This document shows positions 18,283-57,346 of a stretch of DNA of 64,000 nucleotides, piece after piece. Made by a program: the position numbers and the translations under genes. How positions within the stretch are numbered: position 1 is the stretch's first letter; each line of letters starts with the position of its first letter. The notes under the pieces are model-generated. The model did no database searches and was not told where the DNA came from. It worked only from the letters and a program-made list of their open reading frames with translations. Source of the stretch: Enchytraeus crypticus (lineage: Eukaryota > Annelida > Clitellata > Enchytraeida > Enchytraeidae); the NCBI GenBank assembly GCA_905160935.1, contig CAJHZI010000268.1:139501-203500 (forward strand). Direction: 5' to 3'.

Positions 18283-21200
18283 ATGGACGGTGGCGGCTTT
18301 GATTCTCGTGACACCGGGGGCGCCTACCCGGGGGCATCCTACTCGGAGTATCCCGGAGGTGCCTACGGTTCACCAGGGGCGGGTGCCCCTTTCAACCCCG
18401 TCGAGTTCATCAAGAAACCTCAAGTGATACTGCGTATATTATCCTGGGTATGATAAAACCGCTTGTATCGCTCGCTTCTTTTAACCCATTTTACCACATA
18501 TTTCAATTCTTGTTCAATTATTCTGAACTTTACAGACAGTTTCTGTTTGTACAAATCTTTAAAATCGTTTGCGAATCAGTGTATTTTTTGTCGATTTAGA
18601 ATTATTTTAGTTTAATGTATCTTGCTTATAATCATATGATCTGACATTTCTGATTGTTACTCATAGTTTGCTAAATTAATCGACTCTTTCAAATCACAAA
18701 ACAGGAATTAATATTTATAAATTTATCCTGTGATCTCTAGTAATACTGTCAAACATTACCATTTTTGACTGATAAAGGCATATCTATGTCAGTGGTATTA
18801 ATTAATTCCTTCCAGAGTCATCATTAGGAAACGAAATTAGGTAGAGACTTGAACTCTTCCCCGAGAGATCTGCAAGCAGAAAATTTTATGATAATGTACC
18901 ACTGGGTTTATGTTAATGATTGCCTAAATTTTATAATTTTAAGTAAATAAAATTATTTTTTTCAGTACTCTATTTAGCATTTTGAGATTAGACCATTTAG
19001 TGTACTAAAACTATTGTAGACCCGAATTAAGCAAAGATTTACGCAGATGTACATGACTTGAAAGTCTAATACTCAGTAACTAAATTTAATTGGCTACTAA
19101 TGGGAGCATACAATTACTCTATTTCATTTATTAAAGCCACAGTATTGTTCTGACTTTACGTCAGAAAGCTAAATAAGTGGTTTAAGTCTCAAACTATCTG
19201 GTGTCTAATAGTTTTAAGCATAGGCTAGGTTCAATCTAAAATGTAATACATTTGCTCGAGGTTGTACGATTAGTGACTAAAGTGCGATTGAACGGTTATT
19301 GATTGTTGAACGATTTGTAACTGATTTGTGACTGATACGTGGATGACATTGAGAATCATATTGAACGTCTCCAGAAAGATACCCAGGTAGAAGATGATCA
19401 CTCTGTGATAGTATATGTAGATATTCTATCAATGTGTTAGTATGTGTAGAAGTAGTCTCAATGTGTTTGTATGTGTAGATGTTCCATTGCTCATTTTGTT
19501 TGTATGTGTAGATGTTCTACTGATTAGTGTGTTTGTATGTGTAGATGTTCTACTGATCAGTGTGTTTGTATGTGGAGCTGTTCTACTGATCAGTGTGTTT
19601 GTATGTGTAGCTGTTCTATTGCTCAGTGTGTATGTACGTGTAGCTGTTCTACTAATCAGTGTGTTTGTATGTGTAGCTGTTCTATTGCTCAGTGTGTATG
19701 TACGTGTAGCTGTTCTACTAATCAGTGTGTTTGTATGTGTAGATGTTCTACTGATTAGTGTGTTTGTATGTGTAGATGTTCTGCTGATCAGTGTTTGTAT
19801 GTGTAGATGTTCTACTGATTAGTGTGTTTGTATGTGTAGATGTTCTGCTGATCAGTGTGTTTGTATGTGTAGCTGTTCTACTGATCAGTGTGTTTGTATG
19901 TGTAGCTGTTCTATTGCTCAGTGTGTATGTATGTGTAGCTGTTCTACTAATCAGTGTGTTTGTATGTGTAGATGTTTACTGATCAGTGTGTATGTGTAGA
20001 TGTTCTACTGATCAGCGTGTTTGTATGTGTAGATGTTCTCGGTGATAGTGTTTGGCTGTATATCAAGCTCAGCGTGGGACTTTGGTCACTGCTACTATGG
20101 CACTCAGCCCGATGGAGACCCGGGGGCGTGTGGCTACGGCACATTTGTGGGAGTCCTGGCATTCCTGGTGCTGATGGTGTTCCTGGCCCTGGACGCTGTG
20201 TTTGAGAGCCTCAGCAACGCTCTGCATAGGAAGTACATCGTCATAGCCGATATCTGCGCCTCAGGTCTGCAGCGTTCTGTTGTTTTCGCTAATTACTGTA
20301 GAATTACATAGCATCGGTCCATGCTGCTGCAGTGCTACTGTGTTTAACTGCATCACACATTGTCATTGCACTTTAGTTAAATGGCCAGGGTAGACGCAGT
20401 TATATTCTGTAAGTTATTACTGTGCTGCTCTATTTGCTTTTTATATAATAGATATCACAGATGTTCCAGTAGTTTGTTTCTGTTACCTGTCATGTTACCT
20501 GTTCCACAGGTGTGCTGTCGTTCCTGTGGTTCGTTTGTTTCTGTTACCTGTCATGTTACCTGTTCCACAGGTGTGCTGTCGTTCCTGTGGTTCGTTTGTT
20601 TCTGTTACCTGTCGTGTTACCTGTTCCACAGGTGTGCTGTCGTTTCTGTGGTTCGTTTGTTTCTGTTACCTGACTCATGCTTGGAGACACAGCACTCCTC
20701 CTCCAGATCGTGACTACTATAGAGGCTCCAGCCCTATGGAGGCGGCCATTGCTTTCTCCTTCTTCTCCATCGCTACCTCTGTAAGTGTCACATATAGAAA
20801 CCTGCAAACAAACACACACACACACACGCACATACACACGTGTATGTTAGCATGCACATAAATCTTTTAGTGGCTACTCTGTGGTAACATTAATATTCAC
20901 TTGTCGTGTATTGGCAAAATCTGCCTAAACTTCAACATAATGATGTCATACCTTTAGCTACATGGACTGGTCCTACAAAACACTGCAGCTGTGCTGACTG
21001 AGTTACACACATGGGTGTAGGTTCACCCAACATATAGTGTCACTAATGTTCTCTATTCTAAACAATCATCAGTGATGAGAGTTCATTAGGTCATCAATAT
21101 TCACTAGGTCTTCAGAGTTCACTAGGTCATCAGAGTTCATTAGGTAATCAGAGTTCACTAGGTCTCAAAATTCACTAGGGCATCAGAGTTCACTAGGTCG

Positions 21201-21831
21201 TCAGAGTTCACTAGGTCGTCAGAATTCACTAGGTCGTCAGAGTTCACTAGGTCGTCAGAGTTCACTAGGTCGTCAGAGTTCACTAGGTCGTCAGAGTTCA
21301 CTAGGCCATCAGAGTTCACTAGGTCGTCAGAGTTCACTAGGTCGTCAGAGTTCACTAGGTCATCAGAGTTCACTAGGCCATCAGAGTTCACTAGGCCATC
21401 AGAGTTCACTAGGCCATCAGAGTTCACTAGGTCATCAGAGTTCACTAGGTCATCAGAGTTCACTAGGCCATCAGAGTTCACTAGGTTATCAGAGTTCTCT
21501 AGAACGTCAGATCGAAGCTTTACAAAGCTTTTTTGCAACTACTGACATACTATTAATCTAAATCACTATGTTTCAGTAGATACAGACAAGGCTCTCCACT
21601 CATCTCTAAGTGTATGTGTGTATTAGTAGATTGCGCTGACGGTATTAGCAGTGCTTAGATACAGACAAGGCTCTCCACTCATCTCTAAGTGTATGCGTGT
21701 ATTTGTAGATTGCGCTGACGGTATTAGCAGTGCTTAGATACAGACAAGGCTCTCCCACTCATCTCTCGTCTAACTACAACTCTGATCCATTCGGAGGATT
21801 CGACACGGCTGAGTCATCACAGCCCCGCTAA
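18283..21831 (+). CDS. SYNGR: Synaptogyrin, four exons
   Basis: Exons 18283-18447, 20033-20264, 20632-20780 and 21709-21831 join in phases 0/1/0 to 222 codons plus stop, the usual synaptogyrin length. Exon 1 has a Gly/Tyr-rich N-terminus then FNPVEFIKKPQVILRILSW. Exon 2 has VFGCISSSAWDFGHCYYG and a second hydrophobic stretch (TFVGVLAFLVLMVFLALDA). Exon 3 has GVLSFLWFVCFCYLTHAW and AAIAFSFFSIATS. Exon 4 has IALTVLAVLRYRQG and a cytosolic tail. This is the four-helix MARVEL layout of synaptogyrins, synaptic-vesicle membrane proteins with both ends in the cytosol. Exon 1 start: ATG after GATAGAAA, before the Gly-rich N-terminus. The 3' splice sites of exons 2, 3 and 4 each lie at the right end of a tandem array that repeats the acceptor. 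I chose the last copy in each case because only it keeps the frame into the remaining exon. Confidence 0.9.
19438..20040. repeat. 33-bp minisatellite carrying the exon 2 acceptor
   Basis: About 18 units, each with TTTGTATGTGTAGATGTTCT. The last unit is the real junction TATGTGTAG|ATGTTCTCGG of synaptogyrin exon 2, so every unit holds the acceptor AG and the first seven exon bases. The long open frames here (VDVLLISVFVC repeats) are a by-product of a 33-base period. Confidence 0.9.
20465..20680. repeat. 61-bp repeat x 3 spanning the exon 3 acceptor
   Basis: TGTTCCACAG|GTGTGCTGTC occurs at 20510, 20571 and 20632, each followed by the first 40 or so bases of synaptogyrin exon 3. Since 61 is not a multiple of three, only the third copy reads on into THAWRH. 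Confidence 0.9.
21065..21510. repeat. 18-bp minisatellite, about 24 copies, intronic
   Basis: Units of GTCGTCAGAGTTCACTAG, with GTCATC and GCCATC variants, fill intron 3 of synaptogyrin. Confidence 0.9.
21570..21790. repeat. 79-bp repeat x 3 spanning the exon 4 acceptor
   Basis: TAGATACAGACAAGGCTCTC starts at 21577, 21656 and 21735. The acceptor TGTAG|ATTGCGCTGACGG of synaptogyrin exon 4 is at 21709, with an earlier copy (TTAGTAG|ATTGCG) 79 bases upstream. Confidence 0.9.
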
Positions 21832-21939
21832 CTCCTCCCCCATTTGCATCCCCATTTCTCTCTCTCTCCACTCTTCCCCAGGCTTGGTCTAATGAAATTC
21901 GCTGAACTCTCTTTATTCTGATTTATCATGTGAGATATA

Positions 21940-22150
21940 TCATGTGATATACAGCTGAGAGAGAGAGATACAGCTGTATCACGTGATATACAGCTGTATC
22001 ACATGATATACTGCTGTATATCACGTGATATACGGCTGTGCCATGTGATATACAGCGGTGTCATGTGATATACAGCTGTGTATCACGTGATACAGCTGTA
22101 TATCACGTGATATACAGCTGTATCATGTGATATACAGCTGTGTCACATCT
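21940..22150. repeat. Palindrome-rich tandem repeat in the synaptogyrin 3' region
   Basis: About nine units of a 20-24 bp phrase combine TATCACGTGATATACAGCTG. Both TATCACGTGATA and CAGCTG are palindromic E-box words. It starts about 110 bases after the stop codon and may lie in the 3' UTR. Confidence 0.8.
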
Positions 22151-22554
22151 TCTTTGCTGCTTTCTTACATCTTCTTAATATGATAACTTATATCTCCTAC
22201 ACGCTCTATACTATGCACTGTGCTGCTGCTGTGTTATGTGCTGATACAATGGAATGGGTGGATAAATGGTTTCTTCGTGTGTGGTGTTCCTCACTTATCT
22301 CTATTCTCATGACAGAGATAGGATTGGCAGGAGCTGACGTAGTAAAGACTTGTTGTTTTAATGTTGTTCTCACGTGACATTACTGATTTCTGGTTGATAT
22401 GTCAACAGTATTTGATTTAAATGACGAGAGTCTAATGTTGCTGCACTTGTGCTAGATAGGTTTTAACTCTGTGTAGATACAGGTGAAAAAATGTGAACAT
22501 AACCGCTGTGTGAAATATAAGCAATAAGACTAGCTAACTCCTCATGTAATGTAA
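22151..22554. other. No recognised feature
   Basis: Unique-looking sequence downstream of synaptogyrin; no exon or repeat family is recognised. Confidence 0.4.
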
Positions 22555-22682
22555 CTTACTGATGTCAGTAAGATATTTGATCGCGGATCAGTATGGGCGT
22601 GGTTCAAATCTTGGACTCGCCCGTCACTAACATCGCTTTCGAGTGAGGAAACTGATGTTAACATTAGCTCTACCAGCTTTAA
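22555..22682 (+). mobile_element. tRNA-derived SINE, family A
   Basis: A well-preserved plus-strand copy that starts inside the A box (GATGTCAGTAAGATATTTG) and ends GTTAACATTAGCTCTACCAG. Confidence 0.75.
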
Positions 22683-23194
22683 TGTGTCTCTGTTTGCTCT
22701 AATGTGAACTATTGGTACTTCAGTCAGTATTCATCATATGCTTTAATATTAACTGTTCACTATTGTTGATTGAACGACAGAAATGTCTCTAATTTTCTTC
22801 TTTTTCTAGTCTTCTGATAGTCTAATGGAAATTTCCTCTATTACAAAATGGCTACAGTAGTTTAGGTTTGTCTCAAAGCCTAGGTCTTCCTCAGGTAGCT
22901 ATTGTGACTCAATATCTCTAAACTGTTGAAGGTGTATATTATTGTGTTCACATGATCATTTCATCTTAATGCTGTAGTTTAACTTGCTAAAGGCTGCATG
23001 TTATGTGTTCTAATAAGCTAGATTGTTCGGGTATTTACAGATATTATGTGCTCATGTCGTATGTAGCATAGTGGTTTGAAGTCAGTGCTTCAGTGGGTCT
23101 AGACTAGTTGTGTGGTTGTGGCTCTTGTAGCATAGTATTGTGAGTCAATGCTTCATTGGGTCTAGTCTAGTTGTGTGGTTGTGGCTCTAGAGTG

Positions 23195-23632
23195 TATCCA
23201 GGCTTTGGTTTCTATGACAACTCAAGGCCTCCATGCTTTTGTTTCTATGACAACTCAATGGCTCCAGGCTTTGGTTTCTATGACAACTCAAGGCCTCCAT
23301 GCTTTAGTTTCTATGACAACTCAAGGCCTCCATGCTTTGGTTTCTATGACAACTCAAGGCCTCCGGGCTCTGGTTTCTATGACAACTCAATGGCTCCAGG
23401 CTTTGGTTTCTATGACAACTCAATGGCTCCAGGCTTTGGTTTCTATGACAACTCAAGGCCTCTGGGCTCTGGTTTCTATAACAACTCAAGGCCTCCATGC
23501 TATGGTTTATATGACAACTCAAGGCCTCCAGGCTTTGGTTTCTATGACAACTCAATGGCTCCAGGCTTTGGTTTCTATGACAACTCAATGGCTCCAGGCT
23601 TTGGTTTCTATGACAACTCAAAGCAACCCTGA
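23195..23632. repeat. 33-bp minisatellite, about 13 copies
   Basis: Units carry GGTTTCTATGACAACTCAAG or ...CAATG, then GCCTCCATGCTTT or GGCTCCAGGCTTT. All frames stay open because the period is 33. I found no flanking exon. Confidence 0.9.
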
Positions 23633-23821
23633 TACTTTGAGGAGAGGACACAGATATATAGACTTTATATCACCAGTATGTGGTAGATTCTTGATATTAT
23701 GTCATTACATTGTTCTGATGTTGTTTCTGCTCTAGTTTTAATTCTCCCTGTTTGAGATGGTTGAAGGTCTCACCTGATTCAGACTTGATGTAGACTTTGC
23801 TCTGAGGTGTAGATAGCCTAG

Positions 23822-23946
23822 CCTGACTGGAGCCAGTGGCCATGTCAGTAAGATACTCGACCGCGGATCAGTATGTGCAGGGTTCAAATCCTGGACTCAG
23901 CAGAGGAAATTGAGGAAACTGACGTTAACATTAACTTTATCAGTTA
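23822..23946 (+). mobile_element. tRNA-derived SINE, family A
   Basis: Plus-strand copy with intact A-box-like and B-box-like (AGGGTTCAAATCCTGG) parts and a short internal deletion before GAGGAAACTGACGTTAACAT. Confidence 0.75.
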
Positions 23947-24487
23947 TATACGGTTTTTTACTGGAGAACATGTGGCTATAGAGTGGTTTTGTTTATGTCT
24001 AGGTGTAAGTTGATGTGTATTTATGTTGTATATGATTTCATAGTGGAGTGCTCTATGCACTACACTACACTGTTGTGCTCTCGTCATTGTCTCTGCTTAA
24101 CTATTGCTTCGTGCTCGTCCTGATTGATATTGATTTCTCATTTAATCGGATTTATTGATTTGCTCAGAGTCATTGATTGATTAATGTGCTTAGTGTGTTA
24201 TTAATTTATTGATTGATATTAGTAGTCCTGCTTATTAATTGAATTTGATTAAACTGTCCATTGATTGATTGATGATTGATTTATTTATTTATTGATTGAT
24301 TTGATTTATTGATTGAGTGGTTTACATGATCTAGGTGTAAAGAGTTTTTCTGTTTCAAGGATACTGCTAGAATTTGAACCTTGACCTCGCACTCATGCTT
24401 GCTGTAACTACCATGTCAACATTGACTCTCTCTCTCTCTCTGTTAATCGCTATTTAATTATATTAATGCTGATATTAATGCTAGTGT

Positions 24488-24715
24488 GGAGACTGGTGGC
24501 CGAGCTGATAGAGTGCTCGGCTGACAAGCTATAGGCTGTACAGTGTCTTACTGTAACGTGTCTATTTGATCAGACATCTTAACGTCGCTATAACTCTAAT
24601 GCTTTAGAGCTTTCAGTCATTTCCTCTTATCTCCCTAGTGTGTGAAGAACTGAACGTTAAATCATAATTGATTGATTGACTGATTGATTGATTGATTGAT
24701 TGACTCGTTGATTTC
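24488..24715 (+). mobile_element. tRNA-like SINE with TTGA tail
   Basis: It begins TGGTGGCCGAGCTGATAGAG and TGCTCGGCTGACAAGC, resembling a tRNA A-box region, and ends GAACTGAACGTTAAATCATA followed by (ATTG)n. The ACGTTAAA plus TTGA tail matches the end of LINE family C, suggesting a SINE using that LINE's machinery. Only one full copy is in the window. Confidence 0.45.
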
Positions 24716-24844
24716 TCTAAGGTTGTCCTCAGTGACGTATTAATTGATTGAATAATTAAGTAACTTTGATTATTTTTCTATTTAATTAATTTCTGTGCCT
24801 TTATTCGCATTTCTCTCATACATTTTCTCTGCACTTTTCTTCGT

Positions 24845-24849
<5 letters not shown>

Positions 24850-24907
<58 letters not shown>

Positions 24908-25169
24908 CTCTTTCTCTCTCTGTCTCTCTCTCTTTCTCCATGTATGTCTCATTTTCTCTCTCTATGTGTGTCTCTTTCTATCTCCGTAGGTGTCTCTTTC
25001 TGTCTGTCTGTCTCTCTCTCTCTCTCTTTCTCTCTCTCTATGTGTGTCTCTTTCTATCTCTGTAGGTGTCTCTATTTCTCTCTCTTTCTCTCTCTAGACT
25101 CTCTCTCTCTCTATGTCTGTCTCTCTCTCTCTCTATGTGTGTGTCTCTATCTATCTCTGTAGGTGTCTC

Positions 25170-25232
<63 letters not shown>

Positions 25233-25235
25233 ATG
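24850..25235. repeat. (CT)n microsatellite block
   Basis: Two long pure CT runs (24850-24902 and 25163-25221) are separated by CT-rich sequence in which CTATGTGTGTCTCTTTCTAT recurs. Confidence 0.95.
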
Positions 25236-25484
25236 CTACTGTGATGGGTTATAGTGACTAGATGTATTAAACGTGTGTACCGTTAGTGACTTTAAACTTG
25301 CTCATCTCTGGTAACGTTAGAAACAAAACTACAAAGAACTGAGAACATTCACTTCTCGTTGATGTTAGTAACAGATTAATGCTTCCGGTTCTGTCACCAG
25401 TACACAGCAGATAAATAGTCTCTATAAATAACAGTGTAGCTTTTGTTTCATTTTATCCCTCCTAATTGATAGCGATGTTGTGCC

Positions 25485-25640
25485 CCGTGTTGTGTCCGGG
25501 TTGTTTGAAGAATTGAGCAACCGGTGACTGCACGTGTCGTAGAAGGCGACTCAAGCACTAAGATTCATACCAACGTCAGAAAGGGCAAACGGTTGGTGAG
25601 CGCCTAGACTCCAGTAATTGCTACATAAATTTAAACGAAT
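25485..25640 (+). mobile_element. Interspersed repeat family S, 5' part
   Basis: CCCGTGTTGTGTCCGG, then CGTGTCGTAGAAGGCGACTC, the start of a repeat of 300-400 bp seen again at 31270, 35935 and 47755. Confidence 0.55.
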
Positions 25641-25770
25641 GGAAAAGTCTCAAATAGGGGATTGGCTGGTGGTGTGGTGTAGGACAGAGAGGATTTGAGA
25701 CAGTCCATTCGTACCCCGACCCTAGTTAAACTGGATTAAAGGGAAGATGATGATGATGATTATGAGGATT
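25638..25770 (+). mobile_element. RTE-like LINE 3' end, family R
   Basis: ATAGGGGATTGGCTGGTGGT, then GACAGTCCATTCGTACCCCG and a GATGATGATGATGAT tail; this matches 54630-54742. The reading frame is broken. Confidence 0.65.

Positions 25771-25990: not shown

Positions 25991-25993
<3 letters not shown>

Positions 25994-26038
<45 letters not shown>
25994..26038. repeat. (CT)n microsatellite
   Basis: A pure CT run of about 43 bases. Confidence 0.95.
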
Positions 26039-26039
<1 letters not shown>

Positions 26040-30900: not shown

Positions 30901-30904
30901 ATTT

Positions 30905-44254: not shown

Positions 44255-47200
44255 ATGTCTGCAGCAACTTTTATGTCTAATAAACCAGTCGATCAGCGGC
44301 AGCATCCTGGTTCTACTGAAGCCATGGCGCCGGGATCTGTTGAGGGGCCGTTGTTTCCAGACCTGCAGAGATTAAGAAATCGAGTTCGGTTCTACAAAGA
44401 TGCGGTTCGCCTAGATACTTATCATTTGAAGTCTATTACTTTATAGACCGACAAAACTAACGTTGATTTTTCAATTTTGGAATAAAATAATCTGAATCTT
44501 TTATTAAGTATGGTAAATGCTAGAAAATTGCGTGACTTAAATTTTTTTCATGTGACTCGGGTGGATTTTTTAAAAAGTTATTTGCCTGCTGTATTATTAC
44601 TTTCCAATTGTTTTATAGTCCTATCTGAATTGTGCTACATTTATTGTATTGTCTATTGATCTTTTGTAGAATCAGCTCGACACGGCAACATTCTGGGCAG
44701 ATAAAGTTGTGTCATTATCTGGAGGTAAGACATAAATCTTATGGTTTACTTAATTTATCTAAACCTTTATAAATGAAGATAATTATGAATACTACCTCAA
44801 AATTCTGACTAAAATAAACTTGCTAACAATGATATGCTGAATGTCGCTGAATCTCCAATAATCAGCAAGACGGATTTTGAGGACTGAAAGGGTATGTGAT
44901 GTGTACGTATAAAAGCTGGTAAAGCTAATGTTAACGTCAGTTTCCTCACTCGAAAGCGATATCAGTGACAGGCGAGCCCAGAATTTGAATCCTGCACTTA
45001 CTGATCCGCGATCGAATATCTTAGCAACATCACCACTGACTCTAGCCAGTTAAGAAACTCTTGCAGCACATTCTGATATGTGTTGGTGAAGCACTTGATG
45101 TGTATGCTAACACGCTCTATCTATCAACACGTTGTGTTATGTGTAGGTGAAGCACGTGATGTGTATGTCTATGTTAACACGCTCTATCTATCAATACGTT
45201 GTGTTATGTGTAGGTGAAGCACGTGATGTGTATGTCTATGTTAACACGCTCTATCTATCAACACGTTGTGTTATGTGTAGGTGAACCACGTGATGTCTAT
45301 GTGTATGCTAACACGCTCTATCTATCAACACGTTGTGTTATGTGTAGGTGAACCACGTGATGTCTATGTGTATGCTAACACGCTCTATCTATCAGGACAA
45401 TATCAGCGCTCTGTACATCTTATCAAATCTCACGGTATTGATAAGGTTTGAGACATTTCTGTACGTCTTATCAAATCTCACGGTATTGATAAGGTTTGAG
45501 CCAATTCTGTACATCTTATCAAATCTCACGGTATTGATAAGGTTTGAGACAATTCTGTACATCTTATCAAATCTCACGGTATTGATAAGGTTTGAGACAA
45601 TTCTGTACATCTTATCAAATCTCACGGTATTGATAAGGTTTGAGACAATTCTGTACATCTTATCAAATCTCACGGTATTGATAAGGTTTGAGACAATTCT
45701 GTACATCTTATCAAATCTCACGGTATTGATAAGGTTTGAGACAATTCTGTACATCTTATCAAATCTCACGGTATTGATAAGGTTTGAGACAATTCTGTAC
45801 ATCTTATCAAATCTCATGGTATTGATAAGGTTTGAGACAATTCTGTACATCTTATCAAATCTCACGGTATTGATAAGGTTTGAGACAATTCTGTACATCT
45901 TATCAAATCTCACGGTATTGATAAGGTTTGAGACAATTCTGTACATCTTATCAAATCTCACGGTATTGATAAGGTTTGAGACAATTCTGTACATCTTATC
46001 AAATCTCACGGTATTGATAAGGTTTGAGACAATTCTGTACATCTTATCAAATCTCACGGTATTGATAAGGTTTGAGACAATTCTGTACTTCTTATCAAAT
46101 CTCACGGTATTGATAAGGTTTGAGACAATTCTGTACATCTTATCAAATCTCACGGTATTGATAAGGTTTGAGACAACTAATTATGCTAATACTTGAAGGT
46201 TGTTTAGTGTATGTTAAACGTCTAATCGGTCCTTTCCCTACACCATATGTTGTCAGTTGGGTGGTCAACTAGATAGGTTACTTGTGACCTTTTTGACGGC
46301 CTTATTTGTGTATGTCACTGCATATTTTTAGTGTATTGAAATAAACATAATATGTTTATTTCAATGCATTATACTATATTAAGTTAGCATTTTATTTCTT
46401 CATTGTCCAGGTGTCGCTCATTTTTTACTACTGGTCTCAATCCAGCTGTGTCTGTAAATATTCTCATTTACTAATTGACATTGTCTTGCTATTCATGTGC
46501 GTTTCGGGTAGACTTGGGATTTCACTGAATTTTCGTGAGTTATATTTTATAATTAATTTTTTATCTAACGGCAAATTGTTCTCACTGTTTTTCTCTTTTT
46601 TATTTTGTAATTTTTAGTAATAATTTGATTGTTAGAATTTGGTGGCATTTGAAAGCAGCCTATCTACAGCCTAGACTCATTTGAATTCCACTCTATAGTC
46701 TGCGAAATTTAATTTTGTTTATTGAATCTTTAAAAATGTATGCCTCAGTTTCTATATTACAAAATATAATAAATGTAACTTATTTTGATTGTTATATTTG
46801 AACAGAAGTACCTGATATGTAGACTACTGGCTGCACAATGTCTGGTATGAAGCTACAACTGAATAGTTGACTCTAGAATCTTAGTTCTGTCGTAATTTAA
46901 CATTCGTTTAAAAATCCAAATCACGGACATTTATGATGTTTACTCGAAGCTACTTGGTTGCTCTTAAAGGTTCTCTGAGCTGATGCAGCTCTTCTGATAT
47001 TCTCTCCTCTCTAACGGTACACCTGTGTTGTACGCTAAACAATTGATGTGCATAGAATAGATATAGTAATCGTTTAGTACCAGTCTGTTATCTATATTAT
47101 TAGTATGTATTGTATTATTTGCTATTCAGTATCATTTACAGCATAAGCATCATCCATATCGTCTTTTTGAACAGACTCAGCTGGTTTGGATTATGGACTG

Positions 47201-50200
47201 GCATTGTTTTTGGTGTCTACTCTTAATGTGGGCTGATGTTTATTGCTTTATTTCAGGCGTAATAACCCTTGCACATACAACAATGCAGCAAAAACCAGAA
47301 AAGCAAATTGACTGTGCATAAATTGAGCTATAAGACAATTAATTTTAGAATTAGGCATACAAAGCTATAATAAGCTCAGAACACAAAACACTTAACTAAC
47401 GTATTAGCATTATCCAGCAAGCACATTCTAAACTGTTGTTATATTCTGACAGGAATGTTCCTAACATCTCTCTCTGTTGAGGAACTAGACGTTAAATATC
47501 CTGTTTAGTTTACTTCTGCATTCAAAACGTTGTTGTTGATTCTAATTTGATTTAATCACAAGAATTAATTAATTGATTGATTGAACAGTTTGCCAGTAAG
47601 GAGTACCAGGAAGCTCTTACATTATTAGATCAGTCTGAGGCTAAACTTGAACCTGCACCTCCTGACTCTAACTCCCAGCCTGTTACCATGGTCTGAGCTT
47701 CCTCTGCTAGTCATGTTATACTTACCTTGTTAGTTACTGGGCAACTGAAGTATAGACCAACCTGAACTGTACGTGTCGTAGGAGGCAACTAAGCAACGAT
47801 TGAGGAAGACAATAGGAAACCACTTTTATAAGCCATATTCCCATGCTATTGGCTATATTAACGTTTTGGCACATCATATCCTCTGTGATATGATCAACTG
47901 ATTGATCAATGGAGTGCTCTGTCGAAAGCGCCAAGGAAGACTTTAGGAACATGTACCTTTGACCTGATGTTTGGCAAAAACAACAGAAAAAGGGAGATTT
48001 TACATTGTCTCTCATTTGTTACTATGTAACCCTTAATCAGTTAGATTGTTGACATTAGCATTTATCTCTTCACTGAAAGTAGTAGAGTTTCTTGGTGAAA
48101 ATATCCTCTATCCACCTCCATGATGTCATCTTTAATTGATTATCAGTTAGAATGTTTGTCTGGCTGTATACGTGCTTCTGTGTGTGTATATGTGTGTGTG
48201 TGTGTTTATATGTGCTGCTTGATTGTGTGACTTCCTACGTGCAGTCACGTAATGGTTCGTGTAAACTGACTCTGATATTGAATATGTACCTTGGACCAGG
48301 AATTTGACAGTACACTGGAGAGAGAGGAGAGAGAGAGATGTATATGTATACCCGTATTTTTAATATTGGCATATACATGTGTATGTTTGTATATGTGTGT
48401 TCTTGACGTCCCTGACATCATCCTTGCATGAGGAAACGGACGTTAAACCTTTATTATTATTTATTTATATGCATGTTTGTATTGATCAGGATAAGGTACA
48501 GAGCTGTATCAAGCTGTTAAAGGGTCACATATATGTGACACATGTGTAGGATCAGGTAGAGAGCTGTATCAAGCTGTTAAAGGGTCACATATATGTGTAC
48601 ACATGTGTAGGATCAGGTAGAGAGCTGTATCAAGCTGTTAAAGGGTCACATATATGTGTACACATATGTAGGGTCAGGTAGAGAGCTGTATCAAGCTGTT
48701 AAAGGGTCACATATGTGTACACATGTATAGGATCAGGTACAGAGCTGTATCAAGTTGTTATGATCACATATATGTGTACACATGTGTAGGATCAGGTAGA
48801 GAGCTGTATCAAGCTGTTAAAAGGTCACATATATGAGGCTCTAGACAACAGAATACCTGCCTCAGACCTCTATCATCAAGCTTTGCTCTCTGATGTCTAC
48901 AACTACGAGGCCTTCAGCTCCATCGTACAGCATCACATGCTCACTGCCACTGAGGGTCCGTAGCATATATTAACTGTTAAAAAAAGTTAATGTTAACGTC
49001 AGTTTCCTCGCTTGAAAGCGATGTCAGTGATGGGCGAGCCCACGATTTGAACCCCGCACATACTGATCCGCGGTTGAATAACTTACCGATATCTCCACTG
49101 GCTCCAGTCAGTGGCGATATATGCTAACATTTTCTAATTAAGATCATTTTGCTGTTTATCTAACCTCAATTCGAACCAAAAATTGAATGCCACCAAATCA
49201 AACGACCAAGGAGAATACTAAGAATCAGTTACATAGAGCATATAACAATCGAGAACATTAGGATAAGGAAAAAGCAACAAATGGTCAGTGAACTCTTCAA
49301 GAAAAACAGAATAAAATGAGCTGGACACGTGTTGCACATAGAAAAAATAAATCCTCAAAATATATTTGACTAGAAAGATGATGGTAAAAAAACTGCGGAA
49401 GAATAAAAGAAGATGGAAGGACTGCCTCGAAGAAGACCTGATTGCTGCTGGAGTTAGAATTTCTGGTAAACGGAGCGAAGAAAAGGAGTGAATATCCAGG
49501 AAATAAGAAAGGAAGAAGAATGGAGTTTTTTGGAGGAATATCACAGAGAAATCTTTGGCTGAAACCAGCCCCAGGATGATCACATGACATGACAGGCTAT
49601 TTTCATTTGCACATATTATATACATATATCTCTATGCAACTCCAAATGTGCCTAAAAATCACCTGAATAAAGATATTTTGGTAAATATAATGTTATCTAA
49701 GATACTTTTCAACTAAGTAAGAAATTATGTGCTTAAAGTATTCGTACATCTGGCATATTTAGTAGAATTTTAAATTTTTATTGTAATCTATATTAAGGAA
49801 GTTAAGAGTTGTAAAAAATTAATATTTTATGGTTATGTAGTTCTCTCTAGCAGTTATTTACTGGTACAATCATTGCCTTTGAGTACCGCTGCTTTGAAGA
49901 GATGTTTGTGGTTTTGATGTTGTTGACGTAGAGCGAGATTTACTGCAGAGTTTAGCGTGGAACAAATACCCAGCAGAGGATGTTCAGGTGGTCAGGGGCC
50001 TCTACGACAATCTGCTTAAAAAGGTTCAGAGTCTGCAATTCTTGTCAATCTCCTAACTGTTGTATTCATTTCTCACTCTTGTTAGATTGTGCTTCAAACA
50101 GAGAGCAATAAAAGATTTAGTCTCTGTTCAGATTCATTGAATTCACTGTGACGTGGTAAATAAATATTAATGACAAAACGCATCAAGAATTAAAATAAAT

Positions 50201-50999
50201 AGTAATCTATGGCCAATTTCTTAATTGCTTCATTTTATCGAGTTAATCTTAGTCTAGTTTATATTTTGTCTTGAGTTGATCGAGCGATAGGTTGTTCTAC
50301 ACGATCAGTCTTCTGCTCTGTAATATCAACTGTTTGATTTATTTGTTTTATTGATTTAGCTATTGATTGATTAAGTACAGTGATTGATTGATTAATTGAT
50401 TGATTGACTAATTGATTCATTGATCTATCCTTGATTTCTTTTTCTATTATTTGATCTATTGATTGATTAATTGATTGATTGATTCATTAACTGAATGACT
50501 GATTAATTAATTTATTGATTGATTCATTGTTGTAGTATGACAAACCTGCGGCAGGCTCTCTTGCTCCACTGTTGCCACAGCTTGGATCTAACTATGACAT
50601 GCTCGTCTGTCTGGCAGAGAGACATTACTACAACTGTAACTTTAACTCTGCTCTCAAGATAACAACATAGTAAGACTTGTTAACACTACAACTGTAGCTT
50701 TAACTCAGCTCTCAAGATAATAACATAGTAAGACTTGTTAACACTACAACTGTAGCTTTAACTCAGCTCTCAAGATAATAACATAGTAAGACTTGTTAAC
50801 ACTACAACTGTAGCTTTAACTCTGAACTCAAGATAACAACATAGTAAGACTTGTTAACACTACAACTGTAACTTTAACTCTCCACTCAAGATAACAACAT
50901 AGTAAGACTTGTTAACACTACAACTGTAGCTTTCTGTATGTTCCTGTGTATATAAATATGTGTAGTGTATATGTGTGTGTATGCGTGCGTGTCTGTGGG

Positions 51000-51048
<49 letters not shown>

Positions 51049-52323
51049 AAATGTTTGTTTGTGTGTAGATGTTGTGTTCAGTAGTGCATAAAATTAACTA
51101 ATTTAGCGCTACTGTGACTTATTGCATAAAGCGACGCTGATGTAAATTCACTTATTGTTATTTATGATAATTATTATGTGATATATATGTATGTGTATAT
51201 ATATATGTGTGTTTATGTGTAGCGTATTGAATTGTGACACATACAATTCTTCGTGTCTATCTCTTCATGTTACTCTTCTTATATGTGTGTATATGTGTAT
51301 ACGTATGTGTATTTATGTGTGTTACAGTGTGTATGTATGTGTGTATGTATGTGTAGTGTATTGAAATGTGACGCCTACAACTCTTCTTGTCTACCTCTAC
51401 ACATCGCTCTTCTCGTTGAGCTCAATAAATTCAACGGTTTGTAACTATGTTTCAATGTGTCGCTAACACACGCATCTGTTTTCAGCTAGAAAGATACCAA
51501 CAGAAAGCAGCTATTCCCTAATAACGTATTTGATAACACGTCAGAATAATGACGTATCTTTTATGACGTATTTCATCGTTTAGATAATAGGTCAGAATAA
51601 TGACGTATCTTTAATGACGTATTTCATCGTTTAGATAACACGTCAGATAGTTCATTTCTGTTGATTTTATGTGATATTCACCAAAATTTTGCTTTCCTTC
51701 AGCTTATTTAGTTTTTATAGTATTTTAGTTTAATTGTTGAATGCGACACTTTAATGCTTTTAGCGAACTCGTTATTGTATGAATGAGCGTTTTCATTGAA
51801 TTTTTCATTCACTTCATTTTACAAACTTTAAAATTTAAAAAAAGTATATTCTAAATATGTTTTAATGTCCTCAGCTGATGTTTTATATAATAATTATAAG
51901 GTATTTTCTGTGGAATTTTTTTTACTATTTTATCATTATAGCATCATATTGCAAATTAATTAAGCAAGACTGTGATACTTCGTTTACCTGTCTAAATTCT
52001 CTGAACTAGCCCACATGTTTTGAATCAATAATGTTTCTATTACATGTATATTTGAGTAGGGCAATTGTGTGTAGAATTTGTATTATTTTTAGTAAACATA
52101 TTTTGTGAGTTTTTAGAATTGTTCTACTTGGCACACAAGCTCGTGGACCTGTATCCTACCAAAGCTGTGAGTGTCTTACTTCTTATTGCCCTGTTTGCTT
52201 AACTTCAGCTTTATGTTTTCTTATTTAGATGTTTTTCCACACTCACTCTGTGATTTTACTTGTAATGTCATGTAGACAAACTCCAGTTGTAGGATTGCTA
52301 ATGCCTCTCTCTCTATTTATCTC

Positions 52324-52368
<45 letters not shown>

Positions 52369-52374
52369 TATATC

Positions 52375-52407
<33 letters not shown>

Positions 52408-55400
52408 TATATCTCCCTCGTTCTCTCTCTCTCTCTCTCTATCTCTTCTATATATCTCTCTTTCTCTCTCTCGCTCTCTCTCTCTCCCTGTCTTTGAATT
52501 TTTTTTTTAAGGTCATAGTGTTCAGACAGTACTGTAGTGCAATAACTTATCAAATTGATCGATCGATTAGTCAAGTAATAGATTGATAAATTGATCGATT
52601 GATTGATTGATTGATTGATTGTATTATGATTGATTGATTGACTGATTGATGGAGTAGATCTCGTGGTTTGCGGTGGGGTGCTACTACTACCTGGGAGGCA
52701 AGCAGGACCAGGCGAGGAGGTTTCTCAGCAAGGCCACGAGTCTCAGCCGACAGTTTGGAGCCGCCTGGCTGACCTATGGACACTCATTCGCCGCTGAGAA
52801 CGAGCATGACCAGGCCATGGCTGCCTACTTCACTGCCTCTCAGATCATGCGCGGGTATGCTTGCTTGTGTGTGTGCCTGTTTGTCTCTTTGACTTATTGT
52901 ATGTGTCACTCTTAATGATTGTATGTGTTTATTTCTCTTAATCAATGGATGTATAATTCTGACTGTTATTTCTAAATATTCTCAGGATTGTAAGTAGTCT
53001 AGAATATTATGTGTATACCAGACGTGCTCTGGTCTAATTGATACTTCTATATGTTACTAAAAGTTAATTAATATGTTTACATTTGTAATTTGATTATGTA
53101 TTCTTCATAAGCTTTAAATTACATTAACAAGTGGTTAAGGCTTTTTGTGAAGAGATTTAACTTTGTTGAATGCTCCATATAGAGCGTGATAGCAGAATGA
53201 GCAGTGATATGTCCCATGGACCTGCCAACAGGCAGACCGTTTGACAGAGGTAGAGCATTGAGAGTGCTGCAGTCATCATGGATGTTGTATATGTAGATGT
53301 CACCTGCCCAAGCTCTACATTGGACTGGAGTATGGACTGACTAACAACTCTAAGCTAGCGGAGAGGTTTTTCTCTCAGGCCCAACAGATGGCTCCAGATG
53401 ATCCATTCGTCCTCCACGAGATGGGAGTCATAGCTTTCCATAGCAAAGAGTTCGTATCAGTGCTTGATGTCATCATGATCTATACAGTTGATCAGTCGTT
53501 ATCTCTTAGAGGACGACTAAATGAGACATGGCTATTCTTATCAGTGCTTGGTGTCATCATGATCCATACAGTCAATCTGTCGTCTCTTAGAGAGCGACTA
53601 ACTGATATATGGTTATTCTTTCGGTCTGCTCTGGATTGTAGTGTTACAATTATTCACAAATCTCTAGTTGCATTCCATGTCTGTAAATACTTAATCCAAT
53701 CAATCTGCTTTTATTGACTATTTAACTGACTGATTGCCTGTATGATTAATGGATTGATATATTGAAGAACTGATTGATTGATTGATTGATTGATTGAGGA
53801 ACTGATTGGTTGATTGATTGACTGATTGCTTTAATGTTAGATTGATTCCCTTTTGATTTATTAATTGATTGATATTAGTGACTAATTGACTGACCGAGGA
53901 TTTTCTTGCCCTGTAACTGATTGATTCTTGATTAATTGACCATCAGCTGATTCACTATTGATTGATTGATTGATTGCTTGATTGATTGATTGATTGATCA
54001 GATACGAGACTGCTGAAGGCCACTTCCTGGCTGCTCTACAGAAGCTGCAGACAGTTAACTCAGGCTCAGGGGGTAGACAACAACAACAACAGATGCAGGT
54101 GGCTGTGAAGTGGGAGCCTCTACTCAATAACCTGGGTCATGTCTGCAGAAAACTCAAGTTAGCTCCAGCTTTGATTGATTGATTGATTGATATCAGTGTT
54201 CATTTCATCTCGGTCTATTTCTATTTCCATTAATCCTTTGATTCGCTTTTACGCTGGAACATATTTGTACTGTTTTATCTTTTAAATTTTCTGCTCTTTC
54301 TTTTTGTATATTTAATATCAAAATTCAAGCAAATGATTAAAGAAGTCTGGACAAGTTTGGAGCTAGTTTAATTTGTAGACTTGCCTCCATTATTTAATGA
54401 CACAACCCCTGATCATATCAGTTGATTTGTACCGGCTCCCTATCCACATAACCACTCTACTGCTCTCTGCTTCTCTCACGCAATTACTACATCATTAAAG
54501 CTCTTGAACTCTGGAAACATGTAGGAGACTACTGTTCGGCATTGTATTTTATTCTATTGTATTGTATTGTATTGCTAGCCTAGAGAGAAGTAGACCACAA
54601 TTGACATGGGATGCGGTAATTACGAAGGACATGAAAAATAGGGGATTGACTGATGATATGGTGTGGGACCGGGAGGACTGGAGAAAGTCTATTCGTATCC
54701 CGACCCTGGTTAAACTGGGATTTAAGAGAAGATGATGATGATGTATTGTATTGTATTGTATTGTATTGTATTGTATTGTATTGTAGGAAGTATGACGAAT
54801 CAATACTCTACCACAGACAGTCGCTGGTGCTGGAGCCACGCAGCACTTCCACTCTATCAGCTCTTGGCTACGTGTACGCTCTCAAGGGAGACTTTCATCA
54901 GTCCATCACCTACTTCCATAAAGTAAGTACACCACCTCGTAGCTCTAGTATTAGATCTTCTGGCTCATTGAGTTAAGTTATTGACTTGCCACAAATGTTA
55001 TTTTCTGTTTTGGATTTCGTCCTTTTTGCTATTTCTTTCTCTCTCCTTGAATATTGCTAATCGTTGCCTTTTGATTTTGTGCATTGCAGCTAGCGCAGAT
55101 TTATTAATCATCTTCCAATAGCCAATAACATACGGAAAACTTAGAACTTGCCGAGAATTGTTCAGGAATTGATTGATCAATTGACTGATTGATTGTTTGA
55201 CTGATAGATTGACTGCTTGACTGATTGATTATGATTGATTGATTGATTGACTGACTGACTGATTGATTGAGTGACTGATTGATTGATGGAGTGACTGATT
55301 AATTGACTGATTGATTGATTGACTGAATGATTGATTGATTGATTGATTAATAGGCACTGGCTCTGCGCAAGGACGACACATTCTCCACTACTATGCTCGC

Positions 55401-57346
55401 TAGTTCACTGGAACATATCATCAGTGACTACGCTCCCATACCTGGTCTCTTGTACTCCTAAATCTCTCTCTCTCTCTCTCTCGCTCTCTCACTCTCACGC
55501 TTTCTTTTTCTTTGTATGTGTCACGCACACTCATACACACATTCTTCTCACCCTAATTGAATGACTTACATGTATATCTCTCTTTATCGCGTACTAGTGC
55601 AAATCTTGTATGCATGAATCTGCATGACACCCCATGATTCATTGATCTTTATATGTCGAATCATTGAAGCCATGTTATTCCCAAGCTATAGGCTAAATTA
55701 AGGTGTGGATAAGGCCTAGCCATTTGTGAAGGGACTAACTCGCTAATCGATGGTGTGCTTTTATTGGAGCATGAAAAGCAGCAGATGAGTAGGAATATAT
55801 ATAGCTTTTATTTCACCACACAGGTAGGAAGACAAGAAACAAACTACAATACAATCATACAAGTAAACACACACGTAGTGCTGAAAAAATAGACGCAAGC
55901 ATACACTCAATCAATAAACTAAAAATGAATAACTAAACAATAATTGATTTCAAGCGAACATTCAAAATAGTTTCGCAATAACGACTTAAAGTCAAGTCTC
56001 TCAACTTGTAAGCTCCCTGGCAAGGTACAGGTAGGCCTATTAATTACGTTGACGCAGTATTTATCGCGTAATATGTACCTTGGACCTGCCATTTGGCAGA
56101 ACACTAGAGAGAGAGTGAATCAATGCCGTGTAAATCATCCTGGTTCTTCATAAAACTTCTCAGATAAGGTTTTATTTGTTAAAATTTAGTGAATTAGTCA
56201 AAGTCTAGTTTAATATATAGTATTCACTGGGTGAATAAAGTCACGATATATTTGTATTATTTTATATTTATTTGTGACCATGTTATAATTACTAGAGTGT
56301 CCTCACTAAAGGAGTCATCGAAATGCCTCAGCTGTGATGCTACTGATTGATTGATTGACCCAGGAGTACCACATTGATAATTTGTATTGATTGATTGACC
56401 CAAGAGTACCACATTGATAATTTGTATTGATTGATTGACCCAAGAGTACCACATTGATAATTTGTATTGATTGATTGACCCAGGAGTAGCACATTGATAA
56501 TTTGTATTGATTGATTGACCCTGGAGTAGCATATTGATAATTTGTATTGATTGATTGACCCAGGAGTAGCACATTGATAATTTGTATTGATTGATTGACC
56601 CTGGAGTAGCATATTGATAATTTGTATTGATTGATTGACCCAGGAGTAGCACATTGATAATTTGTATTGATTGATTGACCCTGGAGTAGCATATTGATAA
56701 TTTGTATTGATTGATTGACCCAGGTGTACCGGATGTTCTACCACCACACAGCTACGATAAACCTCTTAAAATCTCTCAACCCACAGCTGCTCAAGCAGCT
56801 GCTGCAGCTACTGACCCAGCTGCTGCAGCTGCTAACCCAGCTGCTGAGTACAACGACAGCTATGACATGGAGGACTTGGAGATCTCTCTGCCTGAACTAC
56901 CTGAACTAAGAGCAGACTATTCGTATGAACTAGCGCTGACGCTGAGGCGTGACCAATCAGAGACACAGCCAGCAGCTACTGCTTCTCAGCAGCTCACAGC
57001 TGCTGACTCTTATAGATCAGCTGCTGTGCAGCAGCGACCAGACATCGCTAGTGAGTCATCGGGTGTGTCGTATATACTCGCAGCTGCTGAGTCATTGTCA
57101 CGTGATCAGACAGCTGCTGAGTCACTGTCACGTGATTTGACAGCTGGTGAGTTACTGTCACGTGATAAGACGGCTGCTGAGTCACTGTCACGTGATCTGA
57201 CAGCTGGTGAGTCACTGTCACGTGATCAGACAGCTGGTGAGTCACTGTCACGTGATCAGACAGCTGCTGAGTCATTGTCACGTAACCAGACAGCTGCTGA
57301 GTCATCGTCACTGGTTGACATGAGTATAGAGGAAATGGAAGACTAA
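44255..57346 (+). CDS. CDC16: CDC16 / APC6, TPR subunit of the anaphase-promoting complex
   Basis: Sixteen exons join in frame to 773 codons plus stop: 44255-44404, 44670-44724, 45348-45445, 46806-46844, 47589-47690, 48790-48955, 49932-50023, 50536-50669, 51357-51436, 52117-52166, 52658-52854, 53297-53449, 54002-54157, 54787-54922, 55354-55444, 56724-57346. CDC16 is a TPR scaffold subunit of the APC/C ubiquitin ligase that drives mitotic exit. Conserved blocks in order: RLRNRVRFYKDA, TATFWADKVVSLSG, YEALDNR, EAFSSIVQHHMLTA, LAERHYYNCNF, HIALLVELNKFN, YLAHKLVDLYP, AAWLTYGHSFAAENEHDQAM, YIGLEYGLTNNSKLAERFFS, KWEPLLNNLGHVCRKLK, ALALRKDDTFSTTML. Alignment to the known family from exon 2 to 15 is nearly gap-free. 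The last exon adds about 200 residues, poly-Ala and Ser-rich, longer than usual. The start is ambiguous: ATGs at 44177, 44276 and 44324 share the frame. Several introns have repeat-duplicated splice sites. Confidence 0.93.
44911..45052 (-). mobile_element. tRNA-derived SINE, family A, in CDC16 intron 2
   Basis: A full-length minus-strand copy from AAAAGCTGGTAAAGCTAATG to ACTGACTCTAGCCAG. Confidence 0.8.
45085..45405. repeat. About 66-bp repeat x 5 carrying the CDC16 exon 3 acceptor
   Basis: GTGTTATGTGTAG|GTGAAGCACG or GTGAACCACG recurs at about 45144, 45212, 45280 and 45348, with a decayed first copy near 45085 (GTGTTGGTGAAG). Each unit contains the acceptor and the first 40 or so bases of exon 3, to CTCTATCTATCA. 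Only the last continues into GGACAATATCAG. Confidence 0.9.
45410..46176. repeat. 48-bp minisatellite, about 16 copies, carrying the CDC16 exon 3 donor
   Basis: Each unit reads CTGTACATCTTATCAAATCT, then CACGGTATTGATAAG|GTTTGA. The first unit is the true end of exon 3 (encoding SVHLIKSHGIDK) plus the start of intron 3. The later units are almost identical (one C-to-T, few other changes). The 282- and 253-codon open frames over the array are artefacts of the 48-base period. Confidence 0.95.
46335..46365. repeat. Perfect 15-bp inverted repeat in CDC16 intron 3
   Basis: ATTGAAATAAACATA, one A, then its exact reverse complement. Confidence 0.85.
46806..46844 (+). other. CDC16: CDC16 microexon 4 (39 nt)
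   Basis: TTTGAACAG|AAGTACCTGATATG ... CAATGTCTG|GTATGA encodes KYLICRLLAAQCL, phase 0 at both ends. It fills exactly the gap between exon 3 (ends HGIDK) and exon 5 (starts FASKEYQEAL) relative to the family pattern in which an LDK motif is followed by CRYLAARC and then the AAKEHQQAL motif. Confidence 0.85.
47250..47437 (-). mobile_element. Retroelement 3' end, family T
   Basis: Reverse complement of the element at 32068-32292, about 85 percent alike by eye, in CDC16 intron 4. Its 3' end is TTTATTGCTTTATTTCAGGC on the plus strand. Confidence 0.7.
47755..47980 (+). mobile_element. Interspersed repeat family S in CDC16 intron 5
   Basis: GTACGTGTCGTAGGAGGCAA, AGGAAACCACTTTTATAAGC, TCAATGGAGTGCTCTGTCG and GAACATGTACCTTTGACCTG follow in family order. 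Confidence 0.65.
48283..48472 (+). mobile_element. Family S 3' motif and family C-type tail
   Basis: GAATATGTACCTTGGACC near 48283 is a family S end. Further on, GTCCCTGACATCATCCTTGC then ATGAGGAAACGGACGTTAAA and TTATTATTTATT form a C-type SINE tail. Confidence 0.5.
48490..48850. repeat. About 60-bp repeat x 6 carrying the CDC16 exon 6 acceptor
   Basis: Each unit has CACATGTGTAG|GATCAGGTAG then AGAGCTGTATCAAGCTGTTA. The sixth unit, at 48790, is the real exon 6 start and continues into YEALDNR. Earlier units turn into GGTCACATATATGTGTACAC after about 45 exon-like bases. Confidence 0.9.
48978..49117 (-). mobile_element. tRNA-derived SINE, family A, in CDC16 intron 6
   Basis: A well-preserved full-length minus-strand copy, with an A-rich stretch (AAAAAAAGTTAATG) at its 3' side. 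Confidence 0.8.
49195..49600 (+). mobile_element. LINE ORF2 C-terminal fragment in CDC16 intron 6
   Basis: Broken plus-strand frames give RWAGHV-like AGHVLHIEK, KKRRWKDCLEEDLIAAG and ITEKSLAETSPRM, the C-terminal pattern of RTE/L1-like ORF2 proteins (RWxGHVxR...RWxDCVExDL). Several stops and frameshifts. Confidence 0.6.
50626..50945. repeat. 58-bp repeat x 5 carrying the CDC16 exon 8 donor
   Basis: The end of exon 8 (ACTACAACTGTAACTTTAAC ... AACAACATA|GTAAGAC) at 50669/50670 is repeated with donors about every 58 bases (50728, 50786, ...). Each unit holds about 41 exon-like bases and 17 intron bases (ACTTGTTAACAC). Confidence 0.9.
51005..51050. repeat. (AT)n(GT)n microsatellite
   Basis: TATATATATATATATATATA then GTGTGTGTGTGTGTG. 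Confidence 0.9.
51222..51285 (+). pseudogene. Decayed duplicate of CDC16 exon 9
   Basis: After TTTATGTGTAG| the sequence encodes (Y)VLNCDTYNSSCLSLHVTLL, aligning without gaps to the real exon 9 at 51357-51436, (Y)VLKCDAYNSSCLPLHIALL. The splice phase is the same. It loses the match before VELNKFN and has no donor, so it could not replace exon 9. About 80 percent identical at DNA level by eye. Confidence 0.75.
52325..52490. repeat. (AT)n and (CT)n microsatellites in CDC16 intron 10
   Basis: About 75 bases of AT with one interruption, then CT-rich runs. Confidence 0.95.
52575..52650. repeat. (TTGA)n tract next to the CDC16 exon 11 acceptor
   Basis: GATTGATTGATTGATTGATT runs to within 10 bases of ATGGAGTAG|ATCTCGTGG. 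It takes the place of a normal pyrimidine tract. Confidence 0.85.
53130..53285 (+). mobile_element. Interspersed repeat family S in CDC16 intron 11
   Basis: AAGGCTTTTTGTGAAGAG, GAATGCTCCATATAGAGCGT, TGTCCCATGGACCTGCCAAC and GAGAGTGCTGCAGTCATCAT. The last word is also found, as TAGAGTGCTACAGTCATCAT, at the 3' end of LINE family D (39180). Confidence 0.6.
53450..53640. repeat. About 93-bp direct duplication next to the exon 12 donor
   Basis: TATCAGTGCTTGATGTCATC at 53455 recurs as TATCAGTGCTTGGTGTCATC at 53548, starting six bases into intron 12. The donor itself is not included. Confidence 0.8.
53765..54000. repeat. (TTGA)n tracts ending at the CDC16 exon 13 acceptor
   Basis: GATTGATTGATTGATTGATT blocks run directly into GATCAG|ATACGAGAC. 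Confidence 0.85.
54547..54786. repeat. (TATTG)n array at the CDC16 exon 14 acceptor, split by a LINE end
   Basis: TATTGTATTGTATTGTATTG occurs at 54551-54573 and again at 54743-54782, where it ends in TTGTAG|GAAGTATG, the exon 14 junction. A family R LINE end sits between. Confidence 0.85.
54575..54742 (+). mobile_element. RTE-like LINE 3' end, family R, intact frame
   Basis: An unbroken plus-strand frame of about 54 codons encodes RPQLTWDAVITKDMKNRGLT, DREDWRKSIRIPTLVKLG and a stop at about 54735, then GATGATGATGATG. The DWRK...I(P) ending and GAT tail resemble RTE-type elements. The clean frame suggests a recent insertion. Confidence 0.7.
55160..55352. repeat. (TTGA)n tract ending at the CDC16 exon 15 acceptor
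   Basis: About 180 bases of TTGATTGA/CTGATTGA run into ATTAATAG|GCACTGG. Confidence 0.85.
55650..55805 (+). mobile_element. Interspersed repeat family S in CDC16 intron 15
   Basis: AGCCATGTTATTCCCAAGCT, ATTAAGGTGTGGATAAGGCC and CATGAAAAGCAGCAGATGAG in order; the matching 3' motif (TGTACCTTGGACCTGCCATT) is at 56073, after about 260 inserted bases. Confidence 0.6.
56340..56730. repeat. 40-bp minisatellite x 10 carrying the CDC16 exon 16 acceptor
   Basis: Units read TTGATTGATTGACCCAG|GAGTA then CCACATTGATAATTTGTA. The last is the real junction GACCCAG|GTGTACCGG. Each unit therefore holds the acceptor and about seven exon-like bases. Confidence 0.95.
57080..57305 (+). repeat. Coding 30-bp repeat in the CDC16 tail
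   Basis: About eight units of GCTGAGTCACTGTCACGTGA encode AESLSRDQTA-type decapeptides. The period is a multiple of three. Each unit contains the E-box word TCACGTGA or a one-base variant of it. Confidence 0.9.

Follow-up and report, generated by a model that had tools for sequence, protein, structure and literature searches.

Several amphioxus genes (Adh3, globin, troponin C and PGBD5) contain tandem repeats that lie over exon-intron boundaries and have been named mirages (PMC3087553, PMC3902484). In the sections of these papers considered here, the cases come from individual lancelet genes, found one at a time; their units span donor or acceptor boundaries and measure from tens to more than 150 bases, both 5′ and 3′ boundaries are affected, and the splice signals are kept in many, not all, copies. 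According to the globin study, the Adh3 data and its own RT-PCR suggest normal splicing, and the Adh3 array is even somatically unstable (PMC3087553, PMC3902484). Other described systems share part of these features. The minisatellite of a 1995 study, as summarized in the relevant passage of PMC4526556, has units that carry the donor site at the end of an exon, as here; its downstream units, however, serve as alternative donors, whereas in our case the extra copies that could be placed in the window genes would break the reading frame. Internal tandem repeats also occur at the exon-intron boundaries of human genes within segmental duplications (PMC2812944). According to the part of that report used here, they were found through variation among recent paralogues and give rise to novel introns and alternative splicing, whereas in the genes studied here the coding sequence is unchanged. 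Finally, intron gain by tandem genomic duplication, in the portion of PMC3443670 dealing with the model, likewise begins with a duplicated gene sequence bearing splice-like signals but needs both splice sites, whereas the arrays analyzed here carry one.

The repeats reported below display the features of mirages, namely boundary-spanning units, an occurrence at both boundary types (7 donors and 9 acceptors in 76 introns) and AG or GT in most arrays. Boundary tandem repeats are therefore already a described kind, and what we add is their wider occurrence in another animal lineage. The CDC16 and synaptogyrin proteins are 54% and 50% identical, respectively, to those of Branchiostoma lanceolatum, and judging from these two proteins the animal is not a cephalochordate. 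In contrast to the amphioxus cases, the arrays were counted here over introns chosen regardless of repeats, so that a frequency and an enrichment can be given. On the other hand, RT-PCR and copy-number polymorphism belong to the amphioxus data as presented in the sections considered, while our analysis uses sequence alone, with a reading-frame argument and the copy numbers of paralogues.

The window, i.e., the whole stretch of 64 kb that was analyzed, corresponds to bases 139501–203500 of one contig (C186) in an assembly of 524 Mb and 802 contigs. Two genes were modelled in it and form the window test; both lie on the + strand and both are animal genes by their homologues. The synaptogyrin (SYNGR) model has four exons (18283–18447, 20033–20264, 20632–20780 and 21709–21831). 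Exon 1 is an open frame ending in ILRILSW directly before GT, with a phase 0 join to exon 2; the latter is supported by the gene model, by the MARVEL domain (E 9e-20) and by homologues, and exons 3 and 4 come from the gene model. The best named matches of this protein reach 53% identity, and unnamed metagenome proteins reach 68%. The CDC16 (APC6) gene (44255–57346) was modelled as 16 exons forming a single open frame of 773 aa, which aligns with human CDC16 in one stretch (residues 36–567, E 8e-187). Among the best 120 of 732 matches, its homologues come from many phyla with identities of 48–56%. A quick tree placed the CDC16 sequence with Helobdella (support 0.976) and next to Ridgeia (support 0.251); this hints at an annelid, with long-branch attraction as a possible cause of the grouping. 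Within exon 16, a 30-bp array of 7.7 copies (57081–57311) encodes an in-frame 10-residue repeat. The window has 50 open frames of 110 aa or more, of which 10 were tried in a search for further genes. On the − strand, 61963–62346 matches a caspase domain (E 2e-12). On the + strand, 36754–37176 matches an endonuclease/exonuclease/phosphatase domain of the type present in some retroelements (E 3e-6), and on the − strand 15473–15901 is weakly PAN-like, narrowly missing the cut-off.

A first-pass annotation of this DNA had named eight splice junctions of synaptogyrin and CDC16 as lying at the edge of a tandem array. Tandem Repeats Finder, which returns 113 repeat rows across the window, placed all eight of them on the + strand; six of the periods originally given were recovered exactly, while the CDC16 exon 3 acceptor array has a period of 67 rather than 66 and that of exon 6 a period of 61 rather than 60. 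In synaptogyrin, a 33-bp array of 17.8 copies (19458–20039) abuts the exon 2 acceptor, with 7 exon bases and a recurrence score of 44. The exon 3 acceptor is covered by a 61-bp array of 3.3 copies (20472–20672), each unit holding 41 exon and 20 intron bases, and the exon 4 acceptor by a 79-bp array of 2.4 copies (21577–21766; 58 exon and 21 intron bases). In CDC16, both ends of exon 3 are involved: a 67-bp array of 4.4 copies lies over the acceptor (45098–45394; 47 exon and 20 intron bases) and a 48-bp array of 16.0 copies over the donor (45410–46176; 36 exon and 12 intron bases). Further downstream are a 61-bp array of 5.8 copies over the exon 6 acceptor (48488–48835; 46 exon and 15 intron bases), a 58-bp array of 5.3 copies over the exon 8 donor (50627–50933; 43 exon and 15 intron bases) and a 40-bp array of 9.6 copies (56346–56728), which abuts the exon 16 acceptor with 5 exon bases. 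Overall, the units of six of the eight arrays combine 36–58 exon bases with 12–21 intron bases, and the arrays at SYNGR exon 2 and CDC16 exon 16 are better termed abutting than exon-carrying.

All junctions of the two genes were also approached with a detector working without Tandem Repeats Finder, in which 28 bases centred on each junction are searched for recurrence within 1.5 kb. With this probe, a further copy in the neighbouring intron was detected for 9 of the 36 window junctions, namely 7 acceptors and 2 donors, and no recurrence was seen in shuffled introns (0/672, with probes from all sets). The ninth case, absent from the earlier list, is the CDC16 exon 9 acceptor, where a single diverged copy of the acceptor and exon start (original at 51332–51413) lies upstream on the + strand at 51200–51279 (score 85). 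Each of the window arrays carries one splice site of its intron, the partner site being elsewhere. The earlier reading that the units are unrelated and do not belong to a single spreading family agrees with whole-genome searches made with three of the eight units, those of SYNGR exon 3, the CDC16 exon 3 acceptor and the CDC16 exon 3 donor. These searches, which skip very common words, found no match outside the array of origin in the 524-Mb genome; therefore, the three arrays look born in place. Introner-like elements, in which one repeat is found over many genes, were also considered and do not fit the three units searched.

The first-pass annotation had held that, for the longer acceptor units, only the copy next to the exon body can be used in frame, and for donors only the first copy. 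Across the eight arrays, the register of 22 extra copies could be established, and the use of any of them would lead to an earlier stop; the test covered part of the copies of each array, and 9 further copies could not be placed in register. With an extra copy, synaptogyrin would measure 58–217 aa against the normal 222, and CDC16 91–570 aa against 773. The mildest case is SYNGR exon 4, in which only 5 residues are lost, yet the frame is shifted. It follows, within the limits of this test, that the functional copy must be the exon-proximal one. By inspection of the window and of the independent introns described below, AG or GT and the neighbouring bases are kept in most of the arrays listed; in some copies, e.g., in kin_C689 and myo_C735, the signal is lost or out of register.

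Independent introns were then sampled from the same 524-Mb genome as those lying between two consecutive exon matches of one Pfam domain, chosen blind to their sequence. The first set consists of 85 introns from myosin, kinesin and SNF2 genes. The reading frame, the profile position and the splice consensus together served to locate the junctions, which gave 76 introns of high confidence, while the other 9 were set apart on account of low-confidence junctions. The exon rows entered for pairing were 81 of 81 for myosin, 122 of 128 for kinesin and 54 of 71 for SNF2; in a second list they were 52 of 57 for chaperonin, 22 of 24 for synthetase and 24 of 137 for kinase. Intronless frames, stop-filled matches and lone matches were dropped prior to any inspection of sequence. 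From the 46 introns of the second list, 9 were fetched, all from chaperonin and tRNA-synthetase genes and none from kinases. Among the family members, contig C252 stands apart by carrying two long kinesin frames and one SNF2 frame that all lack introns, whereas the other members of these families mostly consist of several exons; it is possibly a contaminant from an intron-poor eukaryote. Other SNF2 frames, for instance on C320, are also whole.

An array was counted as spanning when it holds at least 8 exon bases and has a period of at least 20, microsatellites being excluded, and the null was obtained by placing the single unit of each array at random. The 76 introns contain 42 arrays, of which 26 are intronic and 16 span a junction (7 donors and 9 acceptors), against 7.28 expected (P 3e-4). 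For periods of 30–130 the spanning arrays are 15 against 4.7 expected. Over nine parameter settings applied to the same introns, with thresholds of 5 or 12 exon bases and narrower period ranges among them, the rate ratio ranges from 2.6 to 8.8 and P from 0.015 to below 1e-5; with a minimum of 12 exon bases the excess is smaller, at 12 spanning arrays for 6.7 expected (P 0.015), and when the low-confidence introns are added it becomes 19 against 7.7. In the window itself, 6 of 11 arrays span a junction with at least 8 exon bases (17 of the 18 introns, SYNGR intron 1 being left out). Before the second set was seen, we fixed the prediction that about 10% of junctions would be spanned by period-30 arrays with a rate ratio above 3; in these 9 introns, 4 of 18 junctions recur with the 28-base probe and 2 of 18 are spanned according to our own reading of the table of repeats, at a threshold of 8 exon bases.

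The junction probe gives a picture that depends on the unit of counting. The sample here is the 76 introns plus the 9 of the second set, 85 in all, and so covers genes for myosin, kinesin, SNF2, chaperonin and tRNA synthetases; recurrence is seen at 20 of 85 acceptors and at 9 of 84 donors. Points in the intron interior recur in 16.4% of cases when taken raw, and in 3.8% (CI 2.6–5.1) when each array is counted once. Against this collapsed interior, recurrence is 6.1-fold higher at acceptors (CI 3.8–9.0) and 2.8-fold higher at donors (CI 1.2–4.8); in the window alone the donor enrichment is not significant (ratio 2.2, CI 0–5.5). Bins of intron near the junction did not serve as control, given that an array collapsed on its copy number is shared out among several of them. 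The over-representation of junctions originally put forward thus stands per event (16 against 7.3, P 3e-4) and fails per base: set against shuffled positions, as first proposed, junctions are not richer overall (29 of 169, 17%, against 16.4%), and with another probe the figures are 29 of 188 against 12.1%. The absence of a base-by-base excess is due to the long arrays, which fill much of the intron sequence. Since a junction is one place whatever number of copies adjoins it, event counting is the proper null for the starts of duplications. The junction preference rests on event counts, which depend on the correct collapsing of arrays, and not on bases; its main weakness is that raw counts show no effect.

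The position and the age of the arrays add further details. In the window and the 85 introns of the first set, 9 arrays with a period of at least 30 extend across a donor, and a single one begins inside the intron less than 60 bases from it. The acceptor side is crowded: 13 of 36 intronic arrays, with fewer than 8 exon bases, end in the last 60 bases of the intron against 3.8 expected, while the corresponding 60 bases on the donor side have 4 against 3.8. Acceptors may therefore be hot spots through some cause independent of the exon. For periods of at least 30 and over all sets, the median identity among copies is 94% in junction arrays (n = 24) and 86% in interior ones (n = 21; P 0.006); without the window the values are 91% (n = 18) and 82% (n = 17; P 0.04). 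This lower divergence argues against a mere longer survival beside exons, as survivors should be older. Array periods show no preference for the frame (6, 10 and 8 by remainder modulo 3). As for paralogues, two kinesin genes (C405 and C617) have a common 41-bp acceptor unit in the same intron, with 3.8 and 18.7 copies, respectively, attributable either to common descent or to exchange between the copies. In two myosin genes (C131 and C193) the coding sequence is interrupted by an intron at one and the same position, after IDK or IEK and before PMG, and a donor array is listed only in C131. The array thus either formed within an intron already present or disappeared from one of the two, and the intron is not owed to the array.

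Most likely, these arrays are mirage-type minisatellites, i.e., local tandem duplications masked by splicing, with a raised birth or turnover at junctions and above all at acceptors. A segment of about 30–130 bases that by chance straddles a splice site would be duplicated in tandem at the DNA level, and the array would then grow or shrink by unequal exchange or slippage. Splicing would discard all copies except the one adjoining the exon body, which exon definition would favour. As the extra copies would be spliced out, the duplication would be masked, whereas a wholly exonic duplication would usually break the protein. Per collapsed base, events are several-fold commoner at junctions than deep in introns, mostly at 3′ splice sites, which would reflect the raised birth or turnover. 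Three units match only their own array, most listed copies have intact signals, many unrelated genes are affected, and the need for the exon-proximal copy was established where tested in the two window genes. From these observations we infer the mutational steps, the choice of the copy by exon definition, and birth rather than selection as the source of the rise.

It could be objected that junctions are not preferred at all, and that in a minisatellite-rich genome arrays are placed at random and those in exons are purged by selection. The abundance of arrays (113 rows in 64 kb), the raw interior recurrence, which equals that of junctions, and the random placement of seeds, which by itself predicts 7.3 of the 16 spanning arrays in the 76 introns, speak for this reading; however, the excess of events holds at P ≤ 0.015 under 9 of 9 settings in these independent introns and appears also in the detector independent of Tandem Repeats Finder, and we regard a lack of preference as unlikely. 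An equally unlikely source of the rise is selection instead of mutation, the extra splice signals being fixed more often through helping the splicing of long introns or persisting as harmless decoys. That most arrays retain AG or GT along with adjacent bases is consistent with it, but the low divergence of the copies could by itself account for intact signals, and every extra copy placed in the two window genes breaks the frame, so that such copies look costly. A second acceptor-anchored repeat, the sense-strand (ATTG)n described below, also speaks for selection, though it was located in 21 against 4 introns only, and branch-site-like words are hardly enriched outside its runs.

Two other explanations are far less probable than these. 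The arrays might be relics of introns that originated when an exon segment bearing AGGT was duplicated in tandem, a model established in PMC3443670 and proposed for amphioxus mirages in the relevant part of PMC3087553; this is very improbable, as each window array has just one of the two splice sites of its intron, and at the intron position common to C131 and C193 the donor array is listed only in the former. An assembly artefact, with copies wrongly added or collapsed, would be conceivable for an array of sixteen near-identical copies, which are hard to count, and according to the section of PMC3087553 considered one amphioxus mirage was wrongly assembled in a draft. The private substitutions between copies, the many unrelated loci and the contigs of up to several Mb make it the most improbable reading of all. 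A bolder and rather doubtful proposal goes beyond masked duplication: tandem duplication could be initiated at the splice signals themselves, perhaps via R-loops or other intermediates of transcription or splicing, amplifying 5′ and 3′ sites together with (ATTG)n and driving intron growth genome-wide. With mirages at about one fifth of the sampled acceptors, their origin becomes countable across a genome, that is, whether duplication is begun at junctions or merely hidden there. Moreover, the arrays offer a natural series of near-identical splice sites on which the copy choice of the spliceosome can be tested. A caution is also due for genomes of this type, where gene prediction and read mapping may put junctions in the wrong place.

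A separate feature of these introns is the presence of (ATTG)n on the sense strand. Perfect runs of at least 11 bases number 106 on the sense strand against 9 on the antisense strand of the 94 introns, and were located in 21 and 4 introns, respectively; in CDC16 (44255–57346) there are 29 sense runs and no antisense run. Their density climbs toward the acceptor from 0.08 to 4.9 runs per kb, and the first 50 bases past the donor contain none in the 94 introns and one near a window donor. Runs near an acceptor show no clear link with the recurrence of that acceptor (8/24 against 21/88). That the runs are amplified branch sites is a guess, weakly backed by the enrichment of branch-site-like words outside the runs, where TTGAT occurs 16 times against 8.7 and YTRAY is flat.

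Other repeats of the window lie outside the two genes. An open frame of 567 residues on the + strand (8568–10268), about 45% of which consists of 30-bp and 9/54-bp tandem repeats, matches no Pfam family at E 0.01. Interstitial telomere-like repeats are found at 6978–7119, with AGGGTT up to about 7090 and TAACCC beyond, in head-to-head arrangement. Finally, a dispersed element with a tRNA-like GGTTCAAAT box, probably a SINE, was recognized by eye on either strand at 22600–22680, 44900–45040, 48990–49110 and 57940–58050, and elsewhere.
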